Position numbers and translations under genes: made by a program. Below, piece after piece: positions 1,608 through 25,594 of a stretch of DNA of 25,882 bases; position 1 is the first letter of the stretch, and each line of letters begins with the position of its first letter. The notes below the pieces were generated by a model. That model did not search any database. It saw only the letters and a program-made list of their open reading frames with translations, and was not told where the DNA came from. This stretch comes from a virus, in IMG/VR virus record IMGVR_UViG_3300020474_000094, positions 1 through 25,882 of that record. One strand, given 5' to 3'.

Positions 1608-2718
1608 ACCTTATTATATCAATCTTATCCATAGTGTCTTGATTCCAGACCTCTAGTTCTCTACGAACTTTGTCCTCTCTAATCATTTTAATGTATCTTT
1701 TAGTAGAAAGTTTTTTCCACCATTTAATTATATTATCAAGTTCAAATCTATCATAGTTTTCGGCTTTTGTCAAGGTATTTGTTTCTCCTAGTAAAACTTC
1801 TCTAGCATTCTCATACCCATATGTTGACATGTAAAATCTTTTTTGTGTAGTTACTTCCCCTGCTTTATTCATTGCATCTGTAAATAGTTGATATGCTTTT
1901 GTATCATATTCTTTTAATGATGACTTAATTGTTCCTACCATCTTGGTCTGCATTTTTAGTTTTCTACTTGATGCACCTTTATGTATTAGGTCTTCACCAC
2001 CGTTTCTTTCGGTAAACCAATCTCTCATTTCCATATAGATATCTTCTCCAAGTGTCAATAGAAACTTAGATTGTGTATCGCCTTTATATCTCAAATATGG
2101 TCGCATACCATCATACATAGATGCACCTTTAAGATTACCATAGAGAGATGTAGTTTCAAATAGACAAAACTCTGTATCATACTTCTTGTTTAACATACGT
2201 CTAGTTGCATGAGAACAACAAATGGCTGCAAGTAATTTACCACCAAGATAGTTATATCCAAATGGTTGTGCAGGCACAATATTAAATCCCATAATAGCAC
2301 GTTTGTTAAAAATATCTAAATCTGGAACACCCCCAAGGAAATCATTTCTAGGTTTAGAATTAATTAGTGGACTACCATAACGAATAAACCCTACAATAGT
2401 ATTTGTAGTTGTTTCTTTCACTACAAGTTTCAGTGTCTTGCCTGGGTTCTCATCTGGTGAGAATGATGCAGTTTTTTCTAATAAAGTATCAAACACCTTC
2501 ATAGGTATTTCTACAACTTGAAAATTCATGTCCTCTGGATGCATATCAAAGTCTTGAAACAAATCATCTTCAATAGACATGCCAGGCAATGGTGATGGAA
2601 TATCTTTAACTCGTTCTATCTTTCTTGCACGAAAATAATCATCAATACGATTAAAATCCTTAAAGTATTGCATTAATTTTGTAGCAGCATATATTGAATC
2701 TTGTTTATTTAATATCAT
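1606..2718 (-). CDS. DruA/DUF4338-like protein of unknown function
   Basis: A 370-aa protein whose central region has a recognisable architecture: FNIVPAQPFGYNYLGGKLLA (145-164), then CLFETTSLYG (185-194), then KGASMYDGMRPYLRYKGDT (197-215). DUF4338/DruA-type proteins show the same order: strand, V-P...L-A-S-R-L-L, a strand ending in E-T-F-V, then G-T-x-Y-x-A-x-N-W...G-x-T. The match is in pattern, not extended identity, and the fold is often compared with GNAT acyltransferases. DruA itself belongs to the Druantia anti-phage system; here the gene is phage-borne and replication-linked, so a defence role is not implied. It overlaps the gp43 stop (ATGA at 2718-2715) and is therefore probably translated from the gp43 transcript. 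The N-terminal ~130 residues and C-terminal ~100 residues show nothing I recognise. Confidence 0.5.
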   Translation of the reverse strand: MILNKQDSIYAATKLMQYFKDFNRIDDYFRARKIERVKDIPSPLPGMSIEDDLFQDFDMHPEDMNFQVVEIPMKVFDTLLEKTASFSPDENPGKTLKLVVKETTTNTIVGFIRYGSPLINSKPRNDFLGGVPDLDIFNKRAIMGFNIVPAQPFGYNYLGGKLLAAICCSHATRRMLNKKYDTEFCLFETTSLYGNLKGASMYDGMRPYLRYKGDTQSKFLLTLGEDIYMEMRDWFTERNGGEDLIHKGASSRKLKMQTKMVGTIKSSLKEYDTKAYQLFTDAMNKAGEVTTQKRFYMSTYGYENAREVLLGETNTLTKAENYDRFELDNIIKWWKKLSTKRYIKMIREDKVRRELEVWNQDTMDKIDIIR

Positions 2719-5204
2719 AGAAAATCCATTAAGTTACCTTGTTGGCCATATGTTCTATCCACCGTCCATTTAAGTTTGGATACAATAAAGTTTAGTGGTT
2801 CAACAAATGACTTTTCAAATTGTTGTTCATAGTCAATCATACTTTGCAATTCAAACTCTTTAGGCATCTTTGTAATAAATGAAATAGAACTTGATTGGTG
2901 AGCATTTGGTATTCTTAAATGTAAGAATTTAATTTTATCCCCCTCTTGAATATAAGGATATTTGTTTACTAGTTTCTTTTGTTTGAGAAGATGATTATAC
3001 AGAATTGCACCTTTACAATGAATGGGCGCTCCTTTGGCAAACAGTGAACTAGGATCACTCCATTTTGTCAAACCGTTTACACTTCTGGGATAAGCGATAT
3101 CTTCTGGTGGCATATTCATAAACTCTTCTCTAAAGTCTTGTATAAACTTATTTAGCATTTTTTCATCACCACTCATGATGATTTTCAACCCTTCTTTAAT
3201 TTTGTTTCTACAAGGTTCAGGCGTAGAAGATTTAACTGCTTCAATGCCCATAATCTTTAGTTTTGGTTCTTGATAACGAACCCCCTCATTATCCCACACA
3301 TTAAGAATATATCTTTTCTTTGCTGTCCAGATACCCTTATCTGCAATAACCTCTCTAGACATCTCCATCTTTTGTTGATATGCTTTCGTATAAGTAGCGA
3401 GTTCTTGATAACATTTACTAATATATGGTTCTATCTTATCTTTTGCAATTGTATTAAGAAAATCAATTGGACTAGATGGATTAAACTTGTCTACCAACGA
3501 ACCAAATGTCACATAGATAGAATCTGTATCAGAGGCAACTACATAATCTTGATTATCAGTTTTCATCAAATCATTCATATAGTCGTTAATCTTATTTTCA
3601 ATCCAACGAATAGATAATTGTCCAGAGGTTGTAACTGCCTCTGCCATCGCAAGAGAATAATATCTAAAGTATTGATTACCGATTGCACCATAAGCACTGT
3701 TTAGTGCAATCTTTCTTGCCATCTGAATATTATCATACTTAGAAATCTTTTTAAGTAGTTTTGGTTCTTTAGTATTTTCGTATTCTTGTTTTGCCTGTAA
3801 CATCTTCTTCTTGAACACAACACGATCATTATACATATCTTCCATCAACTCTGGAAGAAAACCTTTTATGTTTGTTTTGAACAATGCACCATTAGGTGTC
3901 ATAGTAGTATTTTTAAATATAGATGTATCAACTTCTTTGTTTAGAAGTTTATCTACTTTCATACCTTTTACTGTATCCAGAGATTTTAGGGTTTCTGGGG
4001 ATATGTTATATTGCATCATTAGGTGTGGATACAATGAGTTCAAGTCAAAAGACATAACCCATTTGTGTTCACCAACTATAGGATCTTTGACATATGCACC
4101 CTCAAACTTTTCTGCCTTTTCTGAATGTCGTTTCTGTGGAATCACAATGTTCTTTTTCTTTAGATAATTGTAGATTAGAACATCCCAATATTTAACCGAA
4201 CCAAGAACATCCATGTAATTAACTTTGGCTTCATATGCCATAGTCAAACACAATTCAATAAGTCGCATCTTATCTTCAATACGATCAACTAGTTCCACAT
4301 CAAGAATGTTATAGTCAATAAAAGATTGAAAGTCCTTTGTATACCACTCGCTGAATGTTTCATATGGATTTGTATCTTTCTTCTGCCCAAGTTCTACATA
4401 TGCAATATGTGTAAGTGCATATGACTCTTGACTTGTATATGTAAACTTGTGATACAAGTCCAAGTAATCTAAATGAGCAATACCCCTAATATCATAGAGT
4501 TGGTGTTTTCTACCACTATTATAAACTTCTTTATCTTGAACCATACGCCATGGTGATAATCGTTTTAGTTCATCTTCGCCAAATAATTGTTTCATACGAT
4601 TACATAAGTAAGGTATATCAAAAAATTCTGTATTCCATCCAGTTATGATATCTGGTGGACTTTTTTCCCAAAAGATAAGAAACTCTTTAAGTAGATGTAT
4701 TTCACTTTCACATTCAATATAAGTTACATCATCACGATCATTGGTATATTTACCAACACCCCAAACGATAATCTGTTTATTTGAATGGTTCTTTACAGTA
4801 ATAGAAAGAAATGGTTCTGCCGCTTCTTGTGGATTAGGAAAACCATTCTCACATTTAACCTCTATATCAATTGTGTATATTAAGATGTGATCCAAATCCC
4901 AATTTACAGCATTTGGATATTGTTCTGCAAGATATGTATATGGAAATTGATTTAATCCTAATACTAAATCTTTTTGATTTTCATATTGTTTTGCCCACTC
5001 CTTTGCATCTTTGATATTATCAAATTTGATTGGAGCTGCATTACCACCAGTAAGAGTCTTGAAACCACTTACCTTTTCACAAGGTGTATACAAAGTTGGT
5101 TGATATTTAACTTTACGAACTTGCCTTTGACCGTTTACAACTTCTCTAAGAAAAAGTTGGTTTCCCCATTGCAAAATGTTTGTATAAAAAGTATTCATCA
5201 TCAT
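2715..5204 (-). CDS. 43: DNA polymerase, family B (T4 gp43-like)
   Basis: Replicative DNA polymerase with proofreading exonuclease, 829 aa versus about 900 in T4. All motifs are present: Exo I DIE (Asp113, Glu115), Exo II GWNTEFFD (189-196), Exo III YNILD (Tyr298, Asp302), motif A DLNSLYP (387-393), motif B around KIALNSAYG (498-506), and motif C SDTDS (Asp559, Asp561). The last residues, GNLMDFL, resemble the C-terminal clamp-binding tail of T4 gp43. Three consecutive ATGs open the frame (5204, 5201, 5198). The Shine-Dalgarno is poor, and a sigma70-like promoter sits so close that its predicted start falls on the ATGs. The gene is followed without gap by the DruA-like gene and is preceded by its own promoter, so it can be expressed apart from the regA-rimK run. 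Confidence 0.97.
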   Translation of the reverse strand: MMMNTFYTNILQWGNQLFLREVVNGQRQVRKVKYQPTLYTPCEKVSGFKTLTGGNAAPIKFDNIKDAKEWAKQYENQKDLVLGLNQFPYTYLAEQYPNAVNWDLDHILIYTIDIEVKCENGFPNPQEAAEPFLSITVKNHSNKQIIVWGVGKYTNDRDDVTYIECESEIHLLKEFLIFWEKSPPDIITGWNTEFFDIPYLCNRMKQLFGEDELKRLSPWRMVQDKEVYNSGRKHQLYDIRGIAHLDYLDLYHKFTYTSQESYALTHIAYVELGQKKDTNPYETFSEWYTKDFQSFIDYNILDVELVDRIEDKMRLIELCLTMAYEAKVNYMDVLGSVKYWDVLIYNYLKKKNIVIPQKRHSEKAEKFEGAYVKDPIVGEHKWVMSFDLNSLYPHLMMQYNISPETLKSLDTVKGMKVDKLLNKEVDTSIFKNTTMTPNGALFKTNIKGFLPELMEDMYNDRVVFKKKMLQAKQEYENTKEPKLLKKISKYDNIQMARKIALNSAYGAIGNQYFRYYSLAMAEAVTTSGQLSIRWIENKINDYMNDLMKTDNQDYVVASDTDSIYVTFGSLVDKFNPSSPIDFLNTIAKDKIEPYISKCYQELATYTKAYQQKMEMSREVIADKGIWTAKKRYILNVWDNEGVRYQEPKLKIMGIEAVKSSTPEPCRNKIKEGLKIIMSGDEKMLNKFIQDFREEFMNMPPEDIAYPRSVNGLTKWSDPSSLFAKGAPIHCKGAILYNHLLKQKKLVNKYPYIQEGDKIKFLHLRIPNAHQSSSISFITKMPKEFELQSMIDYEQQFEKSFVEPLNFIVSKLKWTVDRTYGQQGNLMDFL

Positions 5205-5243: not shown

Positions 5244-5480
5244 TTATTCAAATAAAGTTTCTTTTTGTTTTACGGTTGGAAAGTAGATATTGATCATTTC
5301 TAATCTATCATGTGCGGCAGATAGTTTATCTAGTTCTGCCATAACTGCTTCTGTAACATCTGAATGTTCTCCAATACCAGCAGGCATAGTTTGGTATACG
5401 GCGATATTTGCCTTATGTACTTCTATTTCACCTTCAGCCTGCTTCTTTGCAGCTAAAATAATTTGTTCGCCAACTTTCAT
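5244..5480 (-). CDS. Hypothetical small protein
   Basis: Not recognised. A 78-aa, mostly helical and charged protein starting MKVGEQII and ending KETLFE, without cysteines, membrane segments or known motifs. I chose the ATG at 5480 because TAGGAG lies 6 nt before it; the ATG at 5486 directly abuts that Shine-Dalgarno and would add two residues. It lies between the RimK-RimB fusion and the gp43 promoter, 9 nt after the former's stop, and is presumably co-transcribed with it. The alanine/glutamate-rich middle (AAKKQAEGEIEVHKANI) suggests a helical bundle or coiled coil, but no function can be assigned. Confidence 0.7.
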   Translation of the reverse strand: MKVGEQIILAAKKQAEGEIEVHKANIAVYQTMPAGIGEHSDVTEAVMAELDKLSAAHDRLEMINIYFPTVKQKETLFE

Positions 5481-5489
5481 TTTCATCTC

Positions 5490-6950
5490 CTATGATTTGA
5501 TTTTTTTTGGTAACTCGTCCTCATCGTTACTATCCCCTCTTTCAATCCAATCCGATAGGACGAATCTTCTGTTTGGATTGACACTAACTTGAAACAAAGT
5601 CATAAGTCCTCTGTTAGCAAGAAAGTTACTTCTGGAATCTTTTGTTGTAAGTCCTACTGGGCAATCTATGTACTTTCTATTATTGAAAGTGATGTTGACA
5701 TTAACGATTGGTCTTTCGTCTATTTTACCAACATGTTCTGGTTTAGACACACCTTGTAAGGCACTTGTAAATTTCTTTCCACCCTTTTCCCACCGTACAG
5801 TTCTACCAGAAACATCAATTTTATCTACTACAAACATTGATGCATGTGTTCCATTTCCAGTATCAAACTTTGCTCTTAGTGGGCCATATCCTTCTACTTC
5901 AATTCTTTCTACATATCCACTTTCTGTGGAAAATGAGTTTCTACGATTGTTTGAATCCATTACAAAGTCTAGTAACTTATCTACAATCTTAGATGGTTTT
6001 GCTTCTCCTATGTATGCATTATTATCTGACTCTGTATCAGTAGCATCATATAGTGCAAAGTTAGAACCAATACCAGCAGAACCATTACACTCTAGAATAT
6101 ATATTTTTTTACCAACAAGTGCATGATCCACTCCAACAACATATGCACCTACAGAACGGGCAGCTCTTAAAATTACATCTCTTTCATCATCTGATAATTC
6201 ATGTGCTTCAGTTGTAGCGCCTCTATGTCTATTTGAACGAAAATCATCCTTTGGACGTATTCTTTTTGTTGATGCAAGTATCTTACCACCGACTACTATT
6301 GTTCTGATATCATAATCAAATTTTAAGTATTCTTGTATTAAAAGTTCTGCATTAAACTTCCAGAGTGATTGAATATTCGATACTAAACTTTCATAAGAAT
6401 CTACAATAGAAACACCAATACCTTGTGTTCCAGTAATTGATTTAATAATCATAGGAAACTTTTCACCAACTCTTTCAAGTGCATCATCTAAAGATTTTTC
6501 ATTTGATACAATTGATGTTTTTGGTGTAGGTATACTATTTCTTTCAAATGATAAAAACGCTGACATTTTATTATCACAAGTTAACATACCTTCTTTGTTG
6601 TTAATCATGAAAGAACCAGCTTTCTCAAAAGATGTCAAAAGGGCAATACCAATCTCATCTTCTAGAACACCAGCACGAACAAAACATACAGTTTTTCTAG
6701 TATTAAATTCTACTACTTTGTCATTACCATCTACATTAGATACAGTAAGAAGTCCAGTTTCTAAATCGTTTTTATTAATCCACGCTTGACGAACATTAAT
6801 AATGTGACATTTAATTTTTCTTTTGTCACACGCTTTTTGAATTAAATTGCTTACCAGTTCTGGTTTTTTAGATTTAACTTTGGTTAGAATTGCAACTTCG
6901 ATATCAGTATCAATTTTGGCCTCAGTAAAAAAATCGGCAAATTTTTCCAT
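5490..6950 (-). CDS. RimK-like ATP-grasp ligase fused to RimB/retropepsin-like domain
   Basis: A 486-aa two-domain protein. Residues ~90-330 form an ATP-grasp ligase of the RimK type: glycine-rich loop TGTQGIG (173-179), QEYLKFDYDIR (206-216) and metal-binding LECNGSAG (286-293). RimK adds glutamates to the C-terminus of ribosomal protein S6; related ligases act on other substrates. Residues ~345-470 look like the RimB/"ATP-dependent zinc protease" family with a retropepsin fold: RAKFDTGNGTHAS with DTG at 363-365, then ERPIVNVNI, then NRGLM and a hydrophobic RFVL near the end. In bacteria RimK and RimB are separate proteins with opposing activities on S6. Here both halves are in one frame, downstream of regA (18-nt gap, GGAG about 8 nt before the ATG). 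An N-terminal ~90-residue domain precedes the ligase. Substrate unknown; the ribosome is a plausible target. Confidence 0.8.
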   Translation of the reverse strand: MEKFADFFTEAKIDTDIEVAILTKVKSKKPELVSNLIQKACDKRKIKCHIINVRQAWINKNDLETGLLTVSNVDGNDKVVEFNTRKTVCFVRAGVLEDEIGIALLTSFEKAGSFMINNKEGMLTCDNKMSAFLSFERNSIPTPKTSIVSNEKSLDDALERVGEKFPMIIKSITGTQGIGVSIVDSYESLVSNIQSLWKFNAELLIQEYLKFDYDIRTIVVGGKILASTKRIRPKDDFRSNRHRGATTEAHELSDDERDVILRAARSVGAYVVGVDHALVGKKIYILECNGSAGIGSNFALYDATDTESDNNAYIGEAKPSKIVDKLLDFVMDSNNRRNSFSTESGYVERIEVEGYGPLRAKFDTGNGTHASMFVVDKIDVSGRTVRWEKGGKKFTSALQGVSKPEHVGKIDERPIVNVNITFNNRKYIDCPVGLTTKDSRSNFLANRGLMTLFQVSVNPNRRFVLSDWIERGDSNDEDELPKKIKS

Positions 6951-6968: not shown

Positions 6969-7391
6969 TTAAATTTCTTTTGGTTCTTCTTTTTTCTTAC
7001 CAATATTATATTTTGTCTCCAAAATCCATTCATTTTTTTCTTTGAATGAAATTATTTTAATCTGACTTAATGGTGCCACTGGTTCGATTTCACCCTTTAC
7101 TGTTACAAGACCCCAATCACTTAATAGTTTGCCGATTGTGTTTCGTCTTGCGATATCATTCTCACTTAGATTAGTTTCTTTACCATCTAAAGCAAAAAGT
7201 TCTTTAAAGTGTACTAAGTAATACTTACCTTGTTTATGTAAAATATGACACGATTGATAGAGTTTTCTATCTTTTCTACTTGCAACTCCAATTCTAGATA
7301 ATGTTTCTCTGACTTTGAGAAAATCGTCTGGTTCTTTCAAGACGATCTCTAGCATATCATCTTGTTTCCAATTCAGTTTAACCTCTTCCAT
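6969..7391 (-). CDS. regA: RegA translational repressor
   Basis: T4 RegA homologue. RegA binds around start codons of early phage mRNAs, including clamp and clamp-loader messages, and blocks ribosomes. The stretch LEIVLKEPDDFLKVRETLSR closely follows T4 RegA, as do LYQSCHIL, KYYLVHFKE and the C-terminal IISFKEKNEW...TKYNIG. The protein is about 140 aa versus 122 in T4 because ~12 residues precede the T4-equivalent Met (MLEIVL at 7355) and a short Lys/Glu tail follows. I start at the ATG at 7391, which has AAGGTGG about 8 nt upstream; a GTG at 7400 is also in frame, and the ATG at 7355 has only a weak ribosome site. The start overlaps the end of gp62 by 14 nt, as expected for a coupled replication operon. 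Confidence 0.93.
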   Translation of the reverse strand: MEEVKLNWKQDDMLEIVLKEPDDFLKVRETLSRIGVASRKDRKLYQSCHILHKQGKYYLVHFKELFALDGKETNLSENDIARRNTIGKLLSDWGLVTVKGEIEPVAPLSQIKIISFKEKNEWILETKYNIGKKKEEPKEI

Positions 7392-7770
7392 TTTTTCCAC
7401 CTTTTTTCAAACTATCTTTAATAGTCTTTATCTGTTCATCATTAAGTATACTTAGAGCGGATTTTGCCTTTTCATTACTATATCCATAATACTCTTTTAC
7501 ATACTCTAGATCTTTAAGTTTACTTGCTTTCAACCAAGGATTAAATCTTTTCCGTGGTCTAAGACTATTTAGTAAAAAGTCAAACTGCAACTTATTATCT
7601 AGATGATGTTGGCGGTTCATCTCATTAGTAAGATGAATGGTTTCTGGGTCTAATAAACACTTATTTACGACAAAGGCTGGATATTTCTTTTCCCAAGCCT
7701 CGTCTGGTGTGTCCATTAGTTTTTCTTTGGTATAGTTTATAGCATTTAAATACTCTTTTAATTCATACAT
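7378..7770 (-). CDS. 62: Clamp loader small subunit (gp62-like)
   Basis: Assigned as gp62, which with gp44 loads the sliding clamp. The protein is only 130 aa against 187 in T4, as I recall for marine T4-like phages. Visible features are the YPAFVVNKCL stretch (~30-40), NEMNRQHHLD in the middle, a basic RPRKRFNPW patch (~72-80) and a lysine/glycine-rich tail. Sequence identity to T4 gp62 is too low to see by eye. The call rests on position between gp44 and regA (the T4 order is 45-44-62-regA) and on similarity to what I remember of marine gp62 proteins. The ATG at 7770 has AAGGA about 8 nt upstream and lies 2 nt after the stop of the interposed 2OG oxygenase gene. Confidence 0.8.
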   Translation of the reverse strand: MYELKEYLNAINYTKEKLMDTPDEAWEKKYPAFVVNKCLLDPETIHLTNEMNRQHHLDNKLQFDFLLNSLRPRKRFNPWLKASKLKDLEYVKEYYGYSNEKAKSALSILNDEQIKTIKDSLKKGGKNGRG

Positions 7771-9273: not shown

Positions 9274-9942
9274 TTAAACTTTATAAGTTGATTCTGGTTC
9301 AAGAGCAATCCAATATTCTACCTTACTAGTTTTATTTTGGAAGTGACTAATATTCTTAGATGATACTGTAACATCATAGTTACCACTTATTAGTTTCATA
9401 TTTTCTACTTTGAAATAGAAATTATATTCTGCACCCTCTGGAGCATCACAATCAACATTCATAGAATAATTATTAGCAGTATCGTTTTTCTTATCCTTTA
9501 CTGTTAGTGAATTATTTTGAAGTGCCATATCTGGTGAAGAAATAACACCAGCAGCCCTTTTAAGTTGATTAATAGTATCTTCTTCTATAGAGAATGTAAC
9601 ATCACTTGACGGCATTGTTATCATTTTAGTTGGACTAGTTACCACACTAGGATCAGAATAGAAATATTTCAAAGATTTCTTTGGACTACCCTCTTCTGAC
9701 ATTATCACAAACTGGTCTTGGAAATCCAAAACTGGTACTGTGAATAAAGATAGAGCAGCAAGAAATTCATTCAAGTCATAAATGGCGACTTCTTTTGGAA
9801 ATGTTTGTTCTACTTCTGCTTTTGCAACGATGTTCTTCATCGCTGACATTGTTGTAAGTGTATTACCTTCTTTGATAATCAAGTTCTGATTAATTGTAGA
9901 GAAGTTTTTTAATACATCTACAGTTTGATTACTTAGTTTCAT
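9274..9942 (-). CDS. 45: Sliding clamp (gp45)
   Basis: DNA polymerase processivity clamp, a trimeric ring in T4 that also activates late transcription with gp55 and gp33. With the start at 9942 it has 222 aa (T4: 228). Matches to T4 include MKLSNQTVDVLKNFSTIN at the N-terminus, VAIYDLNEFLAALSLF, the YSDPSVVTSP stretch and the terminal YWIALEPEST. I chose the ATG at 9942 because AAGGA lies about 8 nt before it and the protein then begins exactly like T4 gp45; an in-frame ATG at 9960 would add six residues. It overlaps the DUF3310-like gene by 14 nt and is followed by gp44 after 17 nt. Confidence 0.93.
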   Translation of the reverse strand: MKLSNQTVDVLKNFSTINQNLIIKEGNTLTTMSAMKNIVAKAEVEQTFPKEVAIYDLNEFLAALSLFTVPVLDFQDQFVIMSEEGSPKKSLKYFYSDPSVVTSPTKMITMPSSDVTFSIEEDTINQLKRAAGVISSPDMALQNNSLTVKDKKNDTANNYSMNVDCDAPEGAEYNFYFKVENMKLISGNYDVTVSSKNISHFQNKTSKVEYWIALEPESTYKV

Positions 9943-10225
9943 TTTCAAGTTCCTTTTCATTATTATAAAGTGCTATTATACCATAATGTATAATCTTAAG
10001 CAAGTCATTTCTGTCCTTACCATTCTTTTTTCCGTATCGTTGTGCATATTTCAATATGTTACCAATACAAAAACCTTCACCATGTCCACCATCTATGATA
10101 AACTCTGTGGCTTGAAACTTGTCCTGCCCGTAGTGTTTAGTATAAGTAGCGTCAACATAAGTTCTAAGTTCAGCAAGAATTTTATCCTCGTTGAACTTAT
10201 AATCAATATCTTTATGATATTTCAA
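9929..10225 (-). CDS. DUF3310-like small protein
   Basis: A 98-aa protein with GFCIGNILKYAQRYGKKNG (51-69) followed by DRNDLLKIIHYGIIALY. This resembles the N-x-I-K-Y-x-x-R-x-x-x-K...DL-x-K-A...Y pattern of the DUF3310 family of phage proteins, whose role is not clear to me. It has no in-frame ATG before the domain: the only usable start is TTG at 10225, preceded by GAGGAGG with 6-nt spacing and directly adjacent to the TAG stop of the upstream gene. It lies immediately before gp45, overlapping its start by 14 nt, suggesting a nucleotide- or replication-related role, but that is only context. Confidence 0.75.
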   Translation of the reverse strand: MKYHKDIDYKFNEDKILAELRTYVDATYTKHYGQDKFQATEFIIDGGHGEGFCIGNILKYAQRYGKKNGKDRNDLLKIIHYGIIALYNNEKELENETK

Positions 10226-12210: not shown

Positions 12211-13386
12211 CTAGAATGATGGTTCGTCATCATCCTCTTTATCCATCTCAGCAAGTTCTGCATCAACGTCTGAATTATCTGTAGTAGAACCAACATCGAT
12301 TCCACTATCTATTTTAGTGTAAAGATCCATAAAGGAGTCTTTGGTTTCATCATCAAACCTAGCAACACAAAGTTCAATAGACTTCATCTTGTCATTGAAG
12401 ATGGCGAATGCCTTAACGATGTGATCTAACCTTCTGGTCGAAATCACTTCATCGACTCCACCGTCAAAGAAAGTCTTTCTGATAACCTCTGCCCACTTGA
12501 CAAGATTATCTGCAAACACTTCATCTACAGTTCCATACTTTTTCATAGAACCGATAACGATCTTCTTTTCGGTCTTAGTAGTAGCATATGGTTGTTCGAT
12601 AGTGATTGCAAACCTTTCTAAGAAGGCCTCGTTCAAAATGTTAGTTCCGATAAACCTACCGTCATCTGAACCTTTACCTTTAGTGTTAGCAGTTGCCATC
12701 ACATTGAAACCATTTTTAGGAGTAATCCACTTGTTTACTTTTTTCAAGTAAACACCTTTACCCTCAAGAACAGGCTGAAGGGCAAGTAACTTGTTAGAAC
12801 CTAAGTCACACTCATCAAGTAAAAGAGTACAACCTTTTTCCATAGCCTCAATAACAGGCCCAGGCACAAACTTAGTTTCACCATTTACCAATCTGAAACC
12901 ACCAAGTAAATCATCTTCATCAGTTTCGATTGTGATGTTAACTCTGATTAACTCTTTTTTAAGTTCAGCGTGAATCTGTTCAATCATAAGAGTTTTACCG
13001 TTACCAGACAAGCCAGTAACAAAAACTGGATAGAACATACCAGATTTTACAATCTGTTTAATTGTAGAGTGATGACCCCAAGGTACAAAACCTACAAAGG
13101 CCTCTGGAACTAAATTTTGTTTTTCCATATTTGTTGCAACCAAATTAACCATAGTATTTTCTACTGGCGCAGTATTAGTCTGTACTGTTTCAGTAACATA
13201 CTTTTCTTCATTAGGAAGTTTGAATTGATTGTAACCAGTTTTACACTGACCTAGAAACCAACCAGCAAGTGGTATTTCTAGTTTATCACAAATCTCTTTA
13301 ACTTGCGATTTGTTCAGAATAGATCCAGCACCGAATTGTTCAGATGCACAATCAACAAACTTCTGTTTTCTTGGACTTAAATACAT
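12211..13386 (-). CDS. MoxR/CobS-like AAA+ ATPase
   Basis: A 391-aa AAA+ ATPase: Walker A GLSGNGKT (125-132), the helix-2 insert region LLGGFRLVNGETKFVPGPVIEAM (160-182) characteristic of MoxR/CobS-type ATPases, Walker B LLLDECD (188-194), sensor 1 in ATANT (231-235) and arginine finger ERF (257-259). Such proteins are often annotated CobS in marine T4-like phages, by similarity to the aerobic cobaltochelatase subunit, but nothing else for cobalamin synthesis is seen. MoxR-type ATPases usually work with a VWA-domain partner, here the preceding gene. The N-terminal ~65 residues carry a small helical domain (ILNKSQVKEICDKLEIP); the C-terminus is strongly acidic. The ATG at 13386 has GAGAGG about 9 nt upstream and its own promoter. 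Confidence 0.85.
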   Translation of the reverse strand: MYLSPRKQKFVDCASEQFGAGSILNKSQVKEICDKLEIPLAGWFLGQCKTGYNQFKLPNEEKYVTETVQTNTAPVENTMVNLVATNMEKQNLVPEAFVGFVPWGHHSTIKQIVKSGMFYPVFVTGLSGNGKTLMIEQIHAELKKELIRVNITIETDEDDLLGGFRLVNGETKFVPGPVIEAMEKGCTLLLDECDLGSNKLLALQPVLEGKGVYLKKVNKWITPKNGFNVMATANTKGKGSDDGRFIGTNILNEAFLERFAITIEQPYATTKTEKKIVIGSMKKYGTVDEVFADNLVKWAEVIRKTFFDGGVDEVISTRRLDHIVKAFAIFNDKMKSIELCVARFDDETKDSFMDLYTKIDSGIDVGSTTDNSDVDAELAEMDKEDDDEPSF

Positions 13387-13487: not shown

Positions 13488-15758
13488 TTAGGCAATCATC
13501 CCAACAAACTTGTTTAATACTGGGCGATTCGCCATTTTGTTAGTAGAAGATTTCATAAATGCCCTCTTCAATTCACCAACTTTAGCGTTTGGATTTACAA
13601 CTAACTCTTCTGATTCTTGCATCGCACCAGCCCCAGGCAAGATATAAAATTCATCATATCCATCCTCTGTAGAAACTACCACATTATCTTTTTTAAGAGT
13701 CTTGTAGATTTCTCTAACTTTTGCATAATCACTATATGAGGATAATCCAAACTTGTCCTCAATAACATTCTTATGAACTCTACCATTTTTTCCAGAACCA
13801 GCAACAAAGAAACCTACAATATTCATATTAGGCACTCTTTTCTTTAACAACTTGAAAAGTGAAATAGTTTGTCCATTTCTACCATTTCTATCAGTAATGA
13901 TTTTAGCACCACTAATTGGATCGGTAATATGAACATCAGCACTTCTCCAACCATCAATATATTTAGAATCATTATAAGATTGACCTTCTTTATCCGTACT
14001 AACATGATAGGCAGAATCAACTCTATGACTATAACCATCAGTTAAAAATACAGAGTGTATTTTTTGAACATTATGTTTTTTCTGAAAGTCTGGAAGTATT
14101 TTCATAGCAGCAATAATAGCATGATTAAGTGGTGTACCACCTAATTGATAATAATTCATCACTCCTAAAGGATAACCTTGTCTACTCCAATTTCTATAAC
14201 CTTTCCAATTTTCACCCATCATATACATGTAATGCATCATTTCATGTTGTTCTTTTTTGGACATTGAAGAACTCAAAAAGTTAAACAATTTTAATTCATC
14301 AATTTTGATATCACCAGACTTGAATACTTGTTCAAACCTTCTATCTTTAATTCGATAGGCCCTATCAGAGAAAGCGAAAACATCAAAAGGAATTTTAGTT
14401 CTCATACAAAATTCTGTAAGATTAAATAACTGTTTCATAGTACCACTCATATTCTCTTGCATTGATCCAGACCAATCCAAAAAGAAAACTAAACCGTGGT
14501 TTGTAGCCCCAGGCACATTAGTAACTTTAGCAAATAAATCCTCATTGTATTTGTAAGTATGTAACTTAGACATATCTAACGAACCAGTTTTTGCGACAGT
14601 AGCACGATTGTATTGATCTGCAGCTTTTTTCATCTCAAATTCTTTAGTAATATAAGATACTGTTTTTTTAGAACCGTCTAGAAAAGTTTTCAATTCTTGT
14701 TGAGTGTATTGAAAGAAAGTATCGTTTTGATCGTTTTTGTAAAACCCTCTTAAATCCTCTAGGATTTGAGCAGGCGTATCAATCATATCTTTGATATTAT
14801 CTAACTTTGGTATCCAACAATAATTTCTATCTTGAGCATTTGTATCTATAAACTTTTTAGATGCCTGTTGATAAGCACTATCGGTAGAAGCAACGAATTT
14901 TTTACCTTCTGATTTACCACCTTCTTTACCATTAGTAACTACTTGTTCAGAACCTTTTTTATCAGATTTTTCATCATCACCATCACCACTACCATTTGAA
15001 CCTTGTTCTGTCTGGTCGGTGTTCTGGTCGTCTCCAGCCCCACTCTGGTCATCAGAATCACCGTTTTCTTGGTTTTCTTCTTTACCATCAGAACTGTCTG
15101 AACTTTGTCCACTTTGTGATTCAGTGTCAGCATTACCACCAGCAGAATTACCCTCACTAGGCATCTGACTCATCTTACCGTCAGCACCAGCACCATCTTG
15201 GTCTGGATCACCTTGGGATTCTTCGTTTTGTTCAATATATTCATATAACTCTTGAGCAAGTTTTAATACTTGTTTAGGAGTCTTAGTTTCATTTGCTTTT
15301 TGAACCCACTCCATCTCTGCATCAGAAAATGGAACATCAGGCACATGTTTAAAATGAAGATTAATTCTATCAATCAAGTTCATTGATTTTAGATGTTTAC
15401 CTTGGAGTTTGAAAAAATCCATTTGTAATAATTCGGTATATCCTAGATTGAAACACCTAACACCGCCTGGGTATCTAGATTGTATCATCTTTTCAATTCT
15501 AACATCTTCTAGGACATTGACAAAAGAAAAATCAATATTTTTCTTTCTAGCGGTTTCCAACATATCTAATGGAGTCCAAAATGCATGACCTACCTCATGA
15601 AGTGTAAATAAGTCTTGAACATTTTCACTCATATCTTTCCAGATAGGTAAAACCAATTCACGATTTTTAACGTCAAAAGCAGCAGTTTCTACTTTTTTAT
15701 GAACCACATGAATATCTTCTTCTGCAAGAAGTTTCGCAAGTCTTGATTTATCTTTCAT
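13488..15758 (-). CDS. VWA-domain protein with HExxH motif (CobT-like)
   Basis: A 756-aa protein. From this start, residues 54-58 read HEVGH in an LHEVGHAFWTP context, a zincin-like HExxH, followed by NVLEDVRIEKMIQSRYPGG, which matches the E-D/Q-x-R-V/I-E...G block of CobT-type proteins and could supply a third metal ligand. Residues ~180-290 are a long acidic Ser/Gln/Gly/Asp linker. The C-terminal third holds a von Willebrand A domain with MIDAS DWSGS (Asp428, Ser430, Ser432), a threonine in LGGTPLNHA and a later FLTDGYSH. I start at the ATG at 15758 (GAGAGG about 7 nt upstream) because the longer frame to 15827 reads through the promoter. It presumably pairs with the AAA+ ATPase next to it. 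The pair could be a chaperone/protease-like remodeller; cobalt chelation is unlikely. Confidence 0.8.
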   Translation of the reverse strand: MKDKSRLAKLLAEEDIHVVHKKVETAAFDVKNRELVLPIWKDMSENVQDLFTLHEVGHAFWTPLDMLETARKKNIDFSFVNVLEDVRIEKMIQSRYPGGVRCFNLGYTELLQMDFFKLQGKHLKSMNLIDRINLHFKHVPDVPFSDAEMEWVQKANETKTPKQVLKLAQELYEYIEQNEESQGDPDQDGAGADGKMSQMPSEGNSAGGNADTESQSGQSSDSSDGKEENQENGDSDDQSGAGDDQNTDQTEQGSNGSGDGDDEKSDKKGSEQVVTNGKEGGKSEGKKFVASTDSAYQQASKKFIDTNAQDRNYCWIPKLDNIKDMIDTPAQILEDLRGFYKNDQNDTFFQYTQQELKTFLDGSKKTVSYITKEFEMKKAADQYNRATVAKTGSLDMSKLHTYKYNEDLFAKVTNVPGATNHGLVFFLDWSGSMQENMSGTMKQLFNLTEFCMRTKIPFDVFAFSDRAYRIKDRRFEQVFKSGDIKIDELKLFNFLSSSMSKKEQHEMMHYMYMMGENWKGYRNWSRQGYPLGVMNYYQLGGTPLNHAIIAAMKILPDFQKKHNVQKIHSVFLTDGYSHRVDSAYHVSTDKEGQSYNDSKYIDGWRSADVHITDPISGAKIITDRNGRNGQTISLFKLLKKRVPNMNIVGFFVAGSGKNGRVHKNVIEDKFGLSSYSDYAKVREIYKTLKKDNVVVSTEDGYDEFYILPGAGAMQESEELVVNPNAKVGELKRAFMKSSTNKMANRPVLNKFVGMIA

Positions 15759-15785
15759 GGTATTTCCTCTCATCATCATATGTAT

Positions 15786-15814
15786 AAGCTGACATACTTT
15801 TGAGGCAAAGTCAA
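15786..15814 (-). promoter_or_regulatory. Sigma70-like promoter P5 for VWA gene
   Basis: The -35 TTGACT at 15814-15809 is preceded by AAAGAC; a 17-nt spacer begins TTGCC and ends TATGT; the -10 position reads CAGCTT followed by ATACATATGATG. It is clearly a sister of the promoter at 13422, including the downstream TATGATGA. The -10 hexamer is a poor match to consensus on its own. Confidence 0.55.
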
Positions 15815-15840
15815 GTCTTTTTTTCACTTTTTTTGAATTA

Positions 15841-17416: not shown

Positions 17417-19085
17417 ATTTTACTACATTTCTAAATTTATCTACTAGTTGATCTTGTTTGTGTGATATAATGAATACATTTTCATTTTCTAAAGTTCCTA
17501 ATATTTTTAAGAACTCTTCTGTTCCAGTTCCATCTAGTGAACTATCGAATATCTCATCAAGTATTAGTAGATTAGTATTTGTTGAGTTTTTCATTTTTGC
17601 AATTGCACGCCAAGTAAAGAGTAGTGCAAGGTCTATTCGCATCTTCTCTCCTTCACTAAATGATGCATAATTAAAATCATCACGGAATCTAGACTTAATA
17701 GTTTCATTAAAGTTTTCATCTAAATTAAAGTTAACATAAAATTCCATAGATTGTAAGTAAGCATTAATTAGTTTATTCATGATAGGAAGATACTGTTTAA
17801 TAATCTTAGTCTTGATTCCAGTATCTTGTAACATTGCTTTTGCAGCTTCATTATATTGTTGTTCATCTTTTAAAGATGATTGTTGTTTATCTAACTCATC
17901 TAATTTAGTTTGTAAACCGTCTAAGTTAGTTTCATCTGCTGACTTTTCGTTACTATCTAACTGTGTTAGTTCTGTTTCTAGTTTAACATTAAACTTTTCC
18001 AACTCTGATTTAGAATATCCTATAGAAGATATTTTCACATCTAACTCTCTAATATTTTGAGTATTAGTTTCTATCTCTTCTTGTCTTTTTTGAGTATTTT
18101 CCATCTCTTGTTTGAGTTGTTTCATACCATCTTCTAGTTCGTCAAGTTCTCCTTGTTTAGTAGAGAGGATTTCATCTTTAAATGCTTGAGCGATTTCTTG
18201 ATCACATGTCGGACATGTTTCATTGTCTTTAAAAAAATCAACTGATTTACTATGACTTTTATGTTTCTCTACTAGAGTAGCACGAATACCCAACATCTTT
18301 TGTATTTTTTGTTCTACTTTATTTGCATCCGAAATCTGTCCTAGATATTCTTCTTTTTTAGATTTTAATTCATCAATTTCATTTTCTCTTCTACCTATTT
18401 CTTTTTTATTTTGTTCTATCTGTCTTTTCTTATCGGTTCTTAGTTTTGCTTTTTCGCTTTTACTTTCATTGATGTATTTACTAGACAGATCAAACTCTGT
18501 TTGTGTAACCTCAAACTTATGTGAAACTTCTCTAGTTTCATCTACAATATTCTTTATGTGTGTTTTTACAATCATATTCATCATCGAAAAGATTTTGATA
18601 TCTAATATCTCTTCAACAACTTCTCTTCTTTTCATTGCTTTAAGTTGCATAAACGGAGCCCATGATGCACTTCCAAGAATAACTACTTGTGTGAAAGAAC
18701 CATAGTTTAGTTTTAAGATTTGTTGTTCTAGTATCTTTTGATAATCTCTAGCATGCGCTTCTTGATTCACCATTACATCATCACAATAGATTTCAAACTT
18801 ATTTGGTTTGATACCTCTAAATACCCTATAGTTTTTTGTTCCGATTTTAAATGTAACTTCTACTTCTGTTCCAGTACCATTAATAGAATTGATTAGTTGA
18901 TTTTTACTAATCACTCTAAATGGTTTGCCAAACAAACCAAAACACAGTGCATCTAGTATTGTTGATTTACCAGCACCATTGTCACCAATAATAAGTGTTT
19001 GTGGATTTCTATCTAAGTCAATGCTAATACCAGTGTTACCAGTTGATAAAAAATTCTTCCATTTCACATTCTTAAATATAATCAA
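17382..19085 (-). CDS. 46: Recombination nuclease subunit, Rad50/SbcC-like (gp46)
   Basis: ATPase subunit of the gp46/gp47 complex that resects DNA ends for recombination-dependent replication; 567 aa versus 560 in T4. Visible are Walker A GDNGAGKS (34-41) and FGLFGKPFR, a long coiled coil on both sides of the zinc hook CPTC (291-294), the ABC signature in SFSEGEKMRIDLALLFTW, and Walker B LLILDEIFD. The frame has no early ATG; the likely start is TTG at 19085, which makes a TTGA overlap with the stop of the nucleotidyltransferase gene and has AGGGGGA about 9 nt upstream. It overlaps the MT-A70 gene at its end. Confidence 0.95.
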   Translation of the reverse strand: MIIFKNVKWKNFLSTGNTGISIDLDRNPQTLIIGDNGAGKSTILDALCFGLFGKPFRVISKNQLINSINGTGTEVEVTFKIGTKNYRVFRGIKPNKFEIYCDDVMVNQEAHARDYQKILEQQILKLNYGSFTQVVILGSASWAPFMQLKAMKRREVVEEILDIKIFSMMNMIVKTHIKNIVDETREVSHKFEVTQTEFDLSSKYINESKSEKAKLRTDKKRQIEQNKKEIGRRENEIDELKSKKEEYLGQISDANKVEQKIQKMLGIRATLVEKHKSHSKSVDFFKDNETCPTCDQEIAQAFKDEILSTKQGELDELEDGMKQLKQEMENTQKRQEEIETNTQNIRELDVKISSIGYSKSELEKFNVKLETELTQLDSNEKSADETNLDGLQTKLDELDKQQSSLKDEQQYNEAAKAMLQDTGIKTKIIKQYLPIMNKLINAYLQSMEFYVNFNLDENFNETIKSRFRDDFNYASFSEGEKMRIDLALLFTWRAIAKMKNSTNTNLLILDEIFDSSLDGTGTEEFLKILGTLENENVFIISHKQDQLVDKFRNVVKFEKLRNFSHIS

Positions 19086-19414
19086 ACTGGTATCCCCCTA
19101 ATATCTGTCGCTGATATGTTTTCAATTTCTTCATCAAAATGTTCTTGTTCAATCTTATAACCAACATCTCTTCCATATGTAATATTCACTATATTAGGAA
19201 CATCCATAATAATATAGTCGTGGTTATATACAAACCCTTCACGAAATAGTTTATCTACCAAATCATCTCTATCGTGATACTCTTCGCCAGTATCACGAAT
19301 CATTATTGCAACTTGCCCAGTTTTACTATGAGCTCGTTTAAAAAGCTCTGTATGTCCGTCATGCCATGGTTGATATCGTCCAAGCATTTGGACAGTTGGT
19401 TTTTGTCGATCCAT
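19082..19414 (-). CDS. HxGH-motif nucleotidyltransferase
   Basis: A 110-aa cytidylyltransferase-like protein: LGRYQPWHDGHTELFKRA carries the HxGH nucleotide-binding motif (18-21), and ISATDIR near the C-terminus corresponds to the ISSTxIR-type motif of the superfamily (NMN, pantetheine-phosphate and related adenylyltransferases). A CTP- or ATP-dependent transfer onto a small phosphate is likely; the substrate is unknown. The ATG at 19414 has TAAGGA about 8 nt upstream, so independent translation is possible. It nevertheless overlaps the upstream kinase ORF by 112 nt in the -1 frame and starts exactly where a kinase domain would end, so the two may be halves of one bifunctional protein. Confidence 0.75.
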   Translation of the reverse strand: MDRQKPTVQMLGRYQPWHDGHTELFKRAHSKTGQVAIMIRDTGEEYHDRDDLVDKLFREGFVYNHDYIIMDVPNIVNITYGRDVGYKIEQEHFDEEIENISATDIRGIPV

Positions 19415-19761
19415 TTTGTAATCCTTACGTCATAATTAATAGGTTGTTCAAAAGTTTTATTGGTATCTTCATATATACTACTTGGAATTTTATCCATCCA
19501 GATAATTACTTCTGGATCAAATATTCGTACTGTTTCCTCTGTAGGACATATAAATGAAGAAATACTTATTGGGTTCAAACAACTAAGATTATGCATCCTA
19601 AATGCTTGTCGTATTCTTCCTTCTTCTGAAAAATCCCAATCATTATATATGTTACGAACCACATCTGCATCCCAATGTGGGATACTAAATTTTTTACCTA
19701 TATGTGATGCTATCCAAGTTTTACCATTTTGTGGCAAACCCATTACTAATATTCTTCTCAT
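19303..19761 (-). CDS. APS-kinase-like P-loop kinase
   Basis: A 152-aa P-loop protein: Walker A GLPQNGKT (8-15), DADVVRN (31-37), then DWDFSEEGRIRQAFRM, which follows the D-G-D-x-V-R...F-S-x-x-x-R pattern of adenylylsulfate kinases (CysC), and VIIWMDK as a later strand. It may phosphorylate a nucleotide or small metabolite; true APS kinase activity is unproven. It begins in an ATGA overlap with gp47. The last ~37 codons overlap the nucleotidyltransferase in another frame and look unlike a folded domain, so the functional end may be near residue 117, where a -1 shift would enter the nucleotidyltransferase. Confidence 0.65.
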   Translation of the reverse strand: MRRILVMGLPQNGKTWIASHIGKKFSIPHWDADVVRNIYNDWDFSEEGRIRQAFRMHNLSCLNPISISSFICPTEETVRIFDPEVIIWMDKIPSSIYEDTNKTFEQPINYDVRITKWIDKNQLSKCLDDINHGMTDIQSFLNELIVKLGKLQ

Positions 19762-24976: not shown

Positions 24977-24984
24977 TATTTATA
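24977..24984 (-). promoter_or_regulatory. T4-type late promoter box before uvsY
   Basis: TATAAATA on the minus strand, an exact match to the T4 late promoter -10 recognised by gp55. It overlaps the stop codon of the upstream gene. The expected transcription start is about 24971, giving a short leader before uvsY. Confidence 0.6.
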
Positions 24985-25586: not shown

Positions 25587-25594
25587 TATTTATA
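25587..25594 (-). promoter_or_regulatory. T4-type late promoter box before tail-tube-like gene
   Basis: TATAAATA, an exact match to the T4 late promoter element, just downstream of the gp23 terminator and about 26 nt before the GTG start. It would restart late transcription after the capsid gene. Confidence 0.75.

Follow-up and report, generated by a model that had tools for sequence, protein, structure and literature searches.

The window, the whole 25,882-nt stretch of DNA that was analysed, comes from a T4-like phage; in this 25.9-kb fragment, homologues of gp45, gp44, gp62, RegA and gp43 form a single operon. Reading of its open reading frames revealed, between regA and gp43 and close to the clamp and clamp-loader genes, an ATG-initiated gene for a 486-aa RimK-RimB fusion protein. 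The initial annotation had described here one phage protein carrying a ligase and a C-terminal DTG domain, encoded in the replication operon next to regA. The ORF and both domains were confirmed, as was the adjoining regA by gene annotation, and the motifs lay at the residues first given for them (TGTQGIG at 173-179, LECNGSAG at 286-293 and DTG at 363-365). The genes of this region are:

2715-5204, minus strand: DNA polymerase, gp43-like (PF00136/PF03104)
5244-5486, minus strand: conserved 80-aa ORF between the fusion gene and gp43 (phrog_1811, E=1.5e-21)
5490-6950, minus strand: RimK-RimB fusion gene, 486 aa (ORF, profile matches, homologue alignment and model)
6969-7400, minus strand: RegA translational repressor, directly upstream of the fusion gene (PF01818, E=2.7e-43)

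The nearest long relative of the window is a 148-kb contig (G001), colinear with it at ~80-90% nucleotide identity. No head genes were found in the 25.9-kb window fragment. Several other genes of the window, all on the minus strand, deserve mention. The 370-aa product of 1606-2718 has a sub-threshold match to Druantia DruA (PF14236, E=2e-4), and phage Mosig has a DUF4338 protein. A MoxR/CobS-like AAA ATPase (AAA_5; PHROG "porphyrin biosynthesis") is encoded at 12211-13386, beside a 779-aa protein (13488-15827) that has a glycine/acid-rich middle part and resembles a CobT/VWA partner. Finally, the overlapping ORFs 19082-19414 and 19303-19761 look as if a frameshift or an overlap had divided a single nucleotide-kinase/nucleotidyltransferase gene.

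The N-terminal half of the fusion protein comprises the following features:

5955-6899, minus strand: RimK-type ATP-grasp ligase, residues ~18-332 (PF08443, TIGR00768 and Foldseek)
6414-6434, minus strand: glycine-rich ATP loop TGTQGIG, residues 173-179 (sequence and homologue alignment)
6072-6095, minus strand: metal site LECNGSAG, residues 286-293, with E287 and N289 invariant, as is the upstream D275
6003-6062, minus strand: insertion of ~18-20 residues after the metal loop, ~residues 297-316 (alignment)

This half matched PF08443 of Pfam over residues 126-294 (E=6.5e-34; 117.6 bits vs a cutoff of 21) and the NCBIfam RimK family TIGR00768 over residues 29-292 (153 bits, exceeding the cutoff of 143.4). 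With the full-length AlphaFold2 model (mean pLDDT 83.7), the top PDB folds retrieved by Foldseek were RimK of Pseudomonas and E. coli, 7qys (E=2e-21) and 5zk6. The ATP and metal residues (the Gly loop, D275, E287 and N289) aligned with those of bacterial RimK and were invariant or nearly so among 60 diverse phage homologues. Scores above the profile cutoffs, the RimK fold of the model and the conserved residues all uphold the earlier claim that the ligase is intact. The score against the S6-specific RimK equivalog (PRK10446/NF007764) was 108 bits, below its cutoff of 331, so that an assignment as S6 ligase is not possible by sequence. The metal loop reads ECNGSAG in the window clade alone and EVNSSPG elsewhere, and the insertion that follows it was not present in the aligned divergent homologues or bacterial RimKs. 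Substrate choice may therefore differ in the window clade, the loop and the insertion (residues 286-316) being a hint of another amino-acid or acceptor specificity.

The C-terminal half comprises:

5553-5939, minus strand: RimB/DUF785-type retropepsin-like domain, residues ~338-466 (hhalign, fold Z and HMM matches)
5853-5864, minus strand: predicted catalytic DTG followed by a phage-specific Asn (DTGN), residues 363-366 (homologue alignment)
5712-5714, minus strand: R413, invariant, aligned with RloA R114 (poly-Glu contact, PMC12239564)
5640-5642, minus strand: K437, aligned with the poly-Glu contact R137 of RloA; Arg or Lys in all 60 homologues
5493-5552, minus strand: disordered acidic tail, residues 467-486 (ending in DSNDEDELPKKIKS), pLDDT <50 and not conserved

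Pfam did not match PF05618 (RimB/DUF785) to the window copy; two relatives exceeded the 27-bit cutoff (L270, 29.9 bits; L203, 28.4 bits). When compared with hhalign, the phage-domain profile aligned with bacterial RimB over 121 columns (probability 98.9, E=1.4e-17), and the HMM matches of this half were 9g58, 9g59 and 2pma. The domain modelled alone (pLDDT 83.3) superposed with VIA-align on 2pma (DUF785) with a Z of 16.2 over 119 residues at 1.9 A and on RloA (9g58/9g59) with a Z of 15.4, values of 8-9 being obtained with the retroviral HIV/FIV proteases. A retropepsin-like fold of this half and conservation of the DTG were the two points on which the initial annotation had made its proposal depend; the former is borne out by the likeness to 2pma and RloA and the latter by a DTG invariant in all 60 aligned phage homologues. 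Profile, fold and motif evidence rule out that the RimB half is an artefact of a distant match. Designed "Bagel" repeat proteins also gave a strong PDB match, which was discarded, as it was made up of eight low-scoring repeats of 21 residues.

The residue following the DTG was Asn in 60/60 phage homologues, whereas bacterial RimB had D(T/S)GA in 22/22, and the psi-loop Gly position was occupied by Asn or Asp in all 60 phage proteins. The phage domain thus lacks both the DTGA and the hydrophobic-hydrophobic-Gly psi-loop of bacterial RimB, which are common in the family and not strictly defining, and by these signatures appears as a divergent branch of the RimB/DUF785 family. In RloA, R114 and R137 hold poly-glutamate (PMC12239564). 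Their equivalents R413 and K437, assigned from how D48, R114 and R137 are spaced along the aligned chain of RloA, were basic in 60/60 phage homologues. Since the DTG and the poly-Glu contacts have been kept, protease activity is likely, although the DTGN and the psi-loop Asn/Asp are fixed; with the DTGN and without the psi-loop Gly, the protease may be altered or inactive. The same two substitutions would suit a module without catalytic activity that serves for binding or dimerisation, holding on to poly-Glu tails and regulating the ligase, then the sole enzyme; the retained contact positions also fit this, as does the stimulation of RimK's poly-Glu synthesis by bacterial RimB (PMC11957791). 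A dead enzyme would not need the invariant catalytic Asp, Thr and Gly, however, and we regard such a module as unlikely.

Relatives of the fusion protein were present on at least 500 viral contigs in each of three scans, the full RimK-RimB architecture was retained down to ~30% identity, and the synteny with regA and gp43 was kept in the phages Mosig and Melnitz and in several contigs, which rules out chance or an assembly artefact. The full architecture was recovered at the marine regA-gp43 locus, in Pelagibacter phage Mosig, in the Yersinia phages GN1 and YerA41 and in contigs of up to 430 kb. Other phage genes, those of the cyanophages S-RIM8/12/32 and of Methylophilales phage Melnitz, share the RimK ligase without the retropepsin half. 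The Melnitz gene has in common with the window fusion both its locus and the N-terminal tag described below; in S-RIM32 the gene is untagged and is found in the vicinity of that for the major head protein. A search of bacterial genomes for the fusion gave one full-length match, 84% identical to that of Mosig, the others being RimK only. It was rejected as a bacterial gene because its contig carries T4-like regA, clamp-loader and polymerase genes, and is thus a phage contig inside a MAG.

One further feature had been overlooked in the initial annotation and is probably more informative than the position in the operon:

6921-6950, minus strand: capsid-targeting-sequence-like propeptide MEKFADFFTE, residues 1-10 (IPIII register, homologue motif, disordered in the model)

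Bacterial RimK begins at the first strand, whereas the phage proteins have 10-25 extra N-terminal residues. The N-terminus of the window protein (MEKFADFFTE/AK, the slash marking the actual or expected cut here and below) is in register with that of IPIII taken from the T4 record (MKTYQEFIAE/AS). The first ten residues of IPIII suffice for packaging, residues 4 and 7 serving targeting and residues 8 and 10 processing (PMC9026906). With aromatic residues at 4 and 7, a hydrophobic one at 8 and Glu at 10, the window tag fits such a capsid-targeting sequence (CTS) of ~10 residues, and a cut by a prohead protease is predicted after E10, before A11. The motif aromatic-x-x-aromatic-hydrophobic-x-E was found, in relaxed form, in 28 of 31 phage homologues chosen as representatives less than 75% identical, 27 of them with a stricter version, and was lacking in all nine bacterial RimKs; Ala directly followed the tag Glu in 15 of the 28 phage copies bearing the motif. 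The gp23 maturation sites are alike (SFLTE/A in T4 and, inferred by similarity, AFLSE/A in Mosig and AFMTE/A in G001), and an S77 gp21-type prohead protease is encoded in 13 of the 15 related records examined, G001 included. The tag Glu is replaced by Asp in L225, and the canonical motif was not found in the YerA41/GN1 homologue. The T4 internal proteins IPI, IPII and IPIII and the T4 protein Alt resemble the phage fusion in their N-terminal CTS (IPIII register), their prohead protease partner and their presumed delivery with the DNA, but their mature domains are unrelated to it, Alt being an ADP-ribosyltransferase.

The strict tag pattern occurs at the start of 19 of the 224 genes of G009 vs 0.62 expected (P~5e-22) and of 7 genes of G010 vs 0.33 expected, or 19 vs 1.2 in relaxed form, and of none of 272 genes in bacterial loci (0.48 expected). 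Genome-wide enrichment was not strong in G001 (2 vs 0.27 expected) and Mosig (1 vs 0.37). The fusion gene lies inside a run of tagged genes in L225/G010 and L188, and in G010/L188 it is outside the regA-gp43 operon.

The tagged genes of G010 (L306-L311) and G009 (L312-L319) form batteries, for instance L225:131-6677, of mostly domain-less proteins with N-termini such as MKLQNYLIE/D, MKFLDYISE/A and MKHIPTFEDFLNE/G, and include a poly(A)-polymerase/CCA-adding-type enzyme and an NT5C-like phosphatase. Judged by their N-termini, these are candidate injected proteins of large phages. Tag-bearing genes in G001 include those for a PAP2-superfamily phosphatase (66522-67607, MPRDFRTHIKE), a 143-aa protein (69076-69507, MKSFKQHIKE) and a DUF6267 protein (78574-79821 (L250), MKTFNQLLTE/DK).

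Two statements of the initial annotation did not survive comparison with known systems, namely that RimK and RimB are separate in bacteria and that the phage fusion is new. Work of 2025 identified RimB as a retropepsin-like protease, and proteolytically active RimBK hybrids exist (PMC11957791); several such fusions were also found here in bacterial genomes. A purified hybrid, D. psychrophila DP2392, cut poly-Glu S6, and no S6 glutamylation was seen (PMC11957791). DP2392 thus combines both domains in one chain, as in the phages, its RimB part cleaving poly-Glu S6. In contrast to the phage order RimK-RimB, RimB comes first in all bacterial fusions checked, which have DTGA/DSGA and LLGR motifs and lack the capsid tag. 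The Pseudomonas RimABK proteins and RloA retropepsins (PMC11957791, PMC12239564) display the same two folds and the same conserved poly-Glu-contact positions, but as separate, untagged polypeptides, whereas the phage protein is fused and tagged. As for novelty, Monier, Claverie and Ogata described in 2008 a RimK of marine phages that is encoded next to regA and has DUF785 as its C-terminal domain, and they mentioned that DUF785 and RimK are also fused in bacteria and haloarchaea (PMC2530865). Given the same architecture and regA neighbourhood, in marine T4-like phages, theirs is very likely the same family. DUF785 had no assigned function at that time, and the capsid tag, a virion link and a jumbo-phage distribution are not reported in the sections of that paper considered here (PMC2530865). 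The fusion as first noted is therefore not new; the new element is the capsid-targeting tag that it bears. Of the earlier account, the intact ligase, the true RimB-type domain with its conserved DTG and the regA neighbour stand.

Published data on a homologue support, by analogy, a presence in the virion. In Table 3 of the YerA41 study (PMC7354516), the part of it used here, g112, a "Ribosomal protein modification protein", bears the asterisk of LC-MS/MS detection in purified particles. By gene order (RNR beta, RNR alpha, one ORF, then the homologue), g112 corresponds to the homologue YerA41_066. The particle proteome also includes replication enzymes (PMC7354516, same part), so contamination is possible, and since the YerA41 homologue moreover lacks the canonical motif, we take this detection as supportive only.

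No T4-type late promoter was found upstream of the fusion gene in the window. The two TATAAATA boxes of the window, at 24977-24984 and 25587-25594 (minus strand), are both ahead of virion-region genes, ATAAATA being depleted elsewhere (3 seen, 18.7 expected); a late box was present within 300 nt upstream of the gene in 3 of 194 family loci. The missing late promoter is what one would expect of an early or middle enzyme that stays in the cytoplasm and edits ribosomal glutamate tails within the replication programme, the N-terminal motif then being an amphipathic peptide for docking, perhaps to the sliding clamp. The site between regA and gp43, near the clamp and clamp-loader genes, is in line with this, as are the cytoplasmic work of bacterial RimK and RimB and the middle-phase peak of the YerA41 homologue (PMC7354516). 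Yet in a docking peptide one would not expect a Glu followed mostly by Ala, a likeness to the gp23 maturation site or a recurrence on ~19 unrelated G009 proteins. The G010/L188 gene is among tagged genes outside the regA-gp43 operon, and packaged proteins can come from non-late operons. On balance a purely cytoplasmic enzyme seems to us rather doubtful.

The tag would also serve an enzyme acting inside the capsid or in head assembly, where a phage head or core protein would be glutamate-tailed or trimmed, modification of the host being secondary. The RimK-only gene of S-RIM32 adjoins the genes for the protease, scaffold and major head protein, which fits such a role; however, ATP would be required in the prohead, and IPI, an internal protein of T4, exerts its effect once injected. 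We consider action within the head very improbable.

The reading that we favour, and hold to be reasonably probable, is that the fusion protein is a packaged and injected glutamate-tail writer-eraser, a virion-borne relative of the bacterial RimK/RimB pair. Its foundations are the two folds, established by prediction and homology, the conserved catalytic and poly-Glu-binding positions, the tag with its conservation, and the prohead protease encoded by related phages. The N-terminal capsid-targeting sequence of ~10 residues would direct the protein to the core of the prohead, and we infer that the gp21-type prohead protease of the phage would cut after Glu10 and that the mature ligase-protease would be ejected with the DNA into the next host. 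There, the RimK half would extend the C-terminal tail of a host protein with glutamates, and the RimB half would trim or limit this tail, or stimulate the ligase as bacterial RimB does. The most likely target would be ribosomal protein S6 of the host, or else a different protein of translation or transcription, altered before phage gene expression. We infer S6 as the default target since RimK and RimB act on S6 and the related phages G001 and Mosig encode S21. The bS21 proteins of these two phages (G001 56624-56812, Mosig 9932-10141; 49% identical) are a second link with the host ribosome.

The replication-operon site, the missing late promoter, the YerA41/GN1 homologue without the canonical motif, the Asp of L225, the modest tag enrichment in G001 and Mosig and the lack of head genes in the window were counted against packaging, and the bacterial RimBK hybrid without S6 glutamylation (PMC11957791) was counted, by analogy, against writer activity. 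The writer-eraser reading is plausible but unproven. We propose more tentatively, as a possibility not quite as likely as its opposite, that a self-contained RimK/retropepsin-like RimB writer-eraser is packaged in the heads of many T4-like and jumbo phages and injected along with their DNA. It would modify the ribosomes or some other tailed protein of the host ahead of any phage gene expression, and the same capsid tag would mark a battery of further injected proteins in these genomes.

The fusion has been on record since 2008 without a function. The tag shifts the question from a RimK in a replication operon to a RimK in a virion, and the packaging question is open to testing on the cultured phages Mosig (Pelagibacter) and YerA41 (Yersinia ruckeri). 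A common N-terminal tag would also be a simple way to list other injected proteins of jumbo phages. If the proposal is true, glutamate tailing and trimming would join the short list of virion-delivered modifications of host proteins, beside ADP-ribosylation by Alt.
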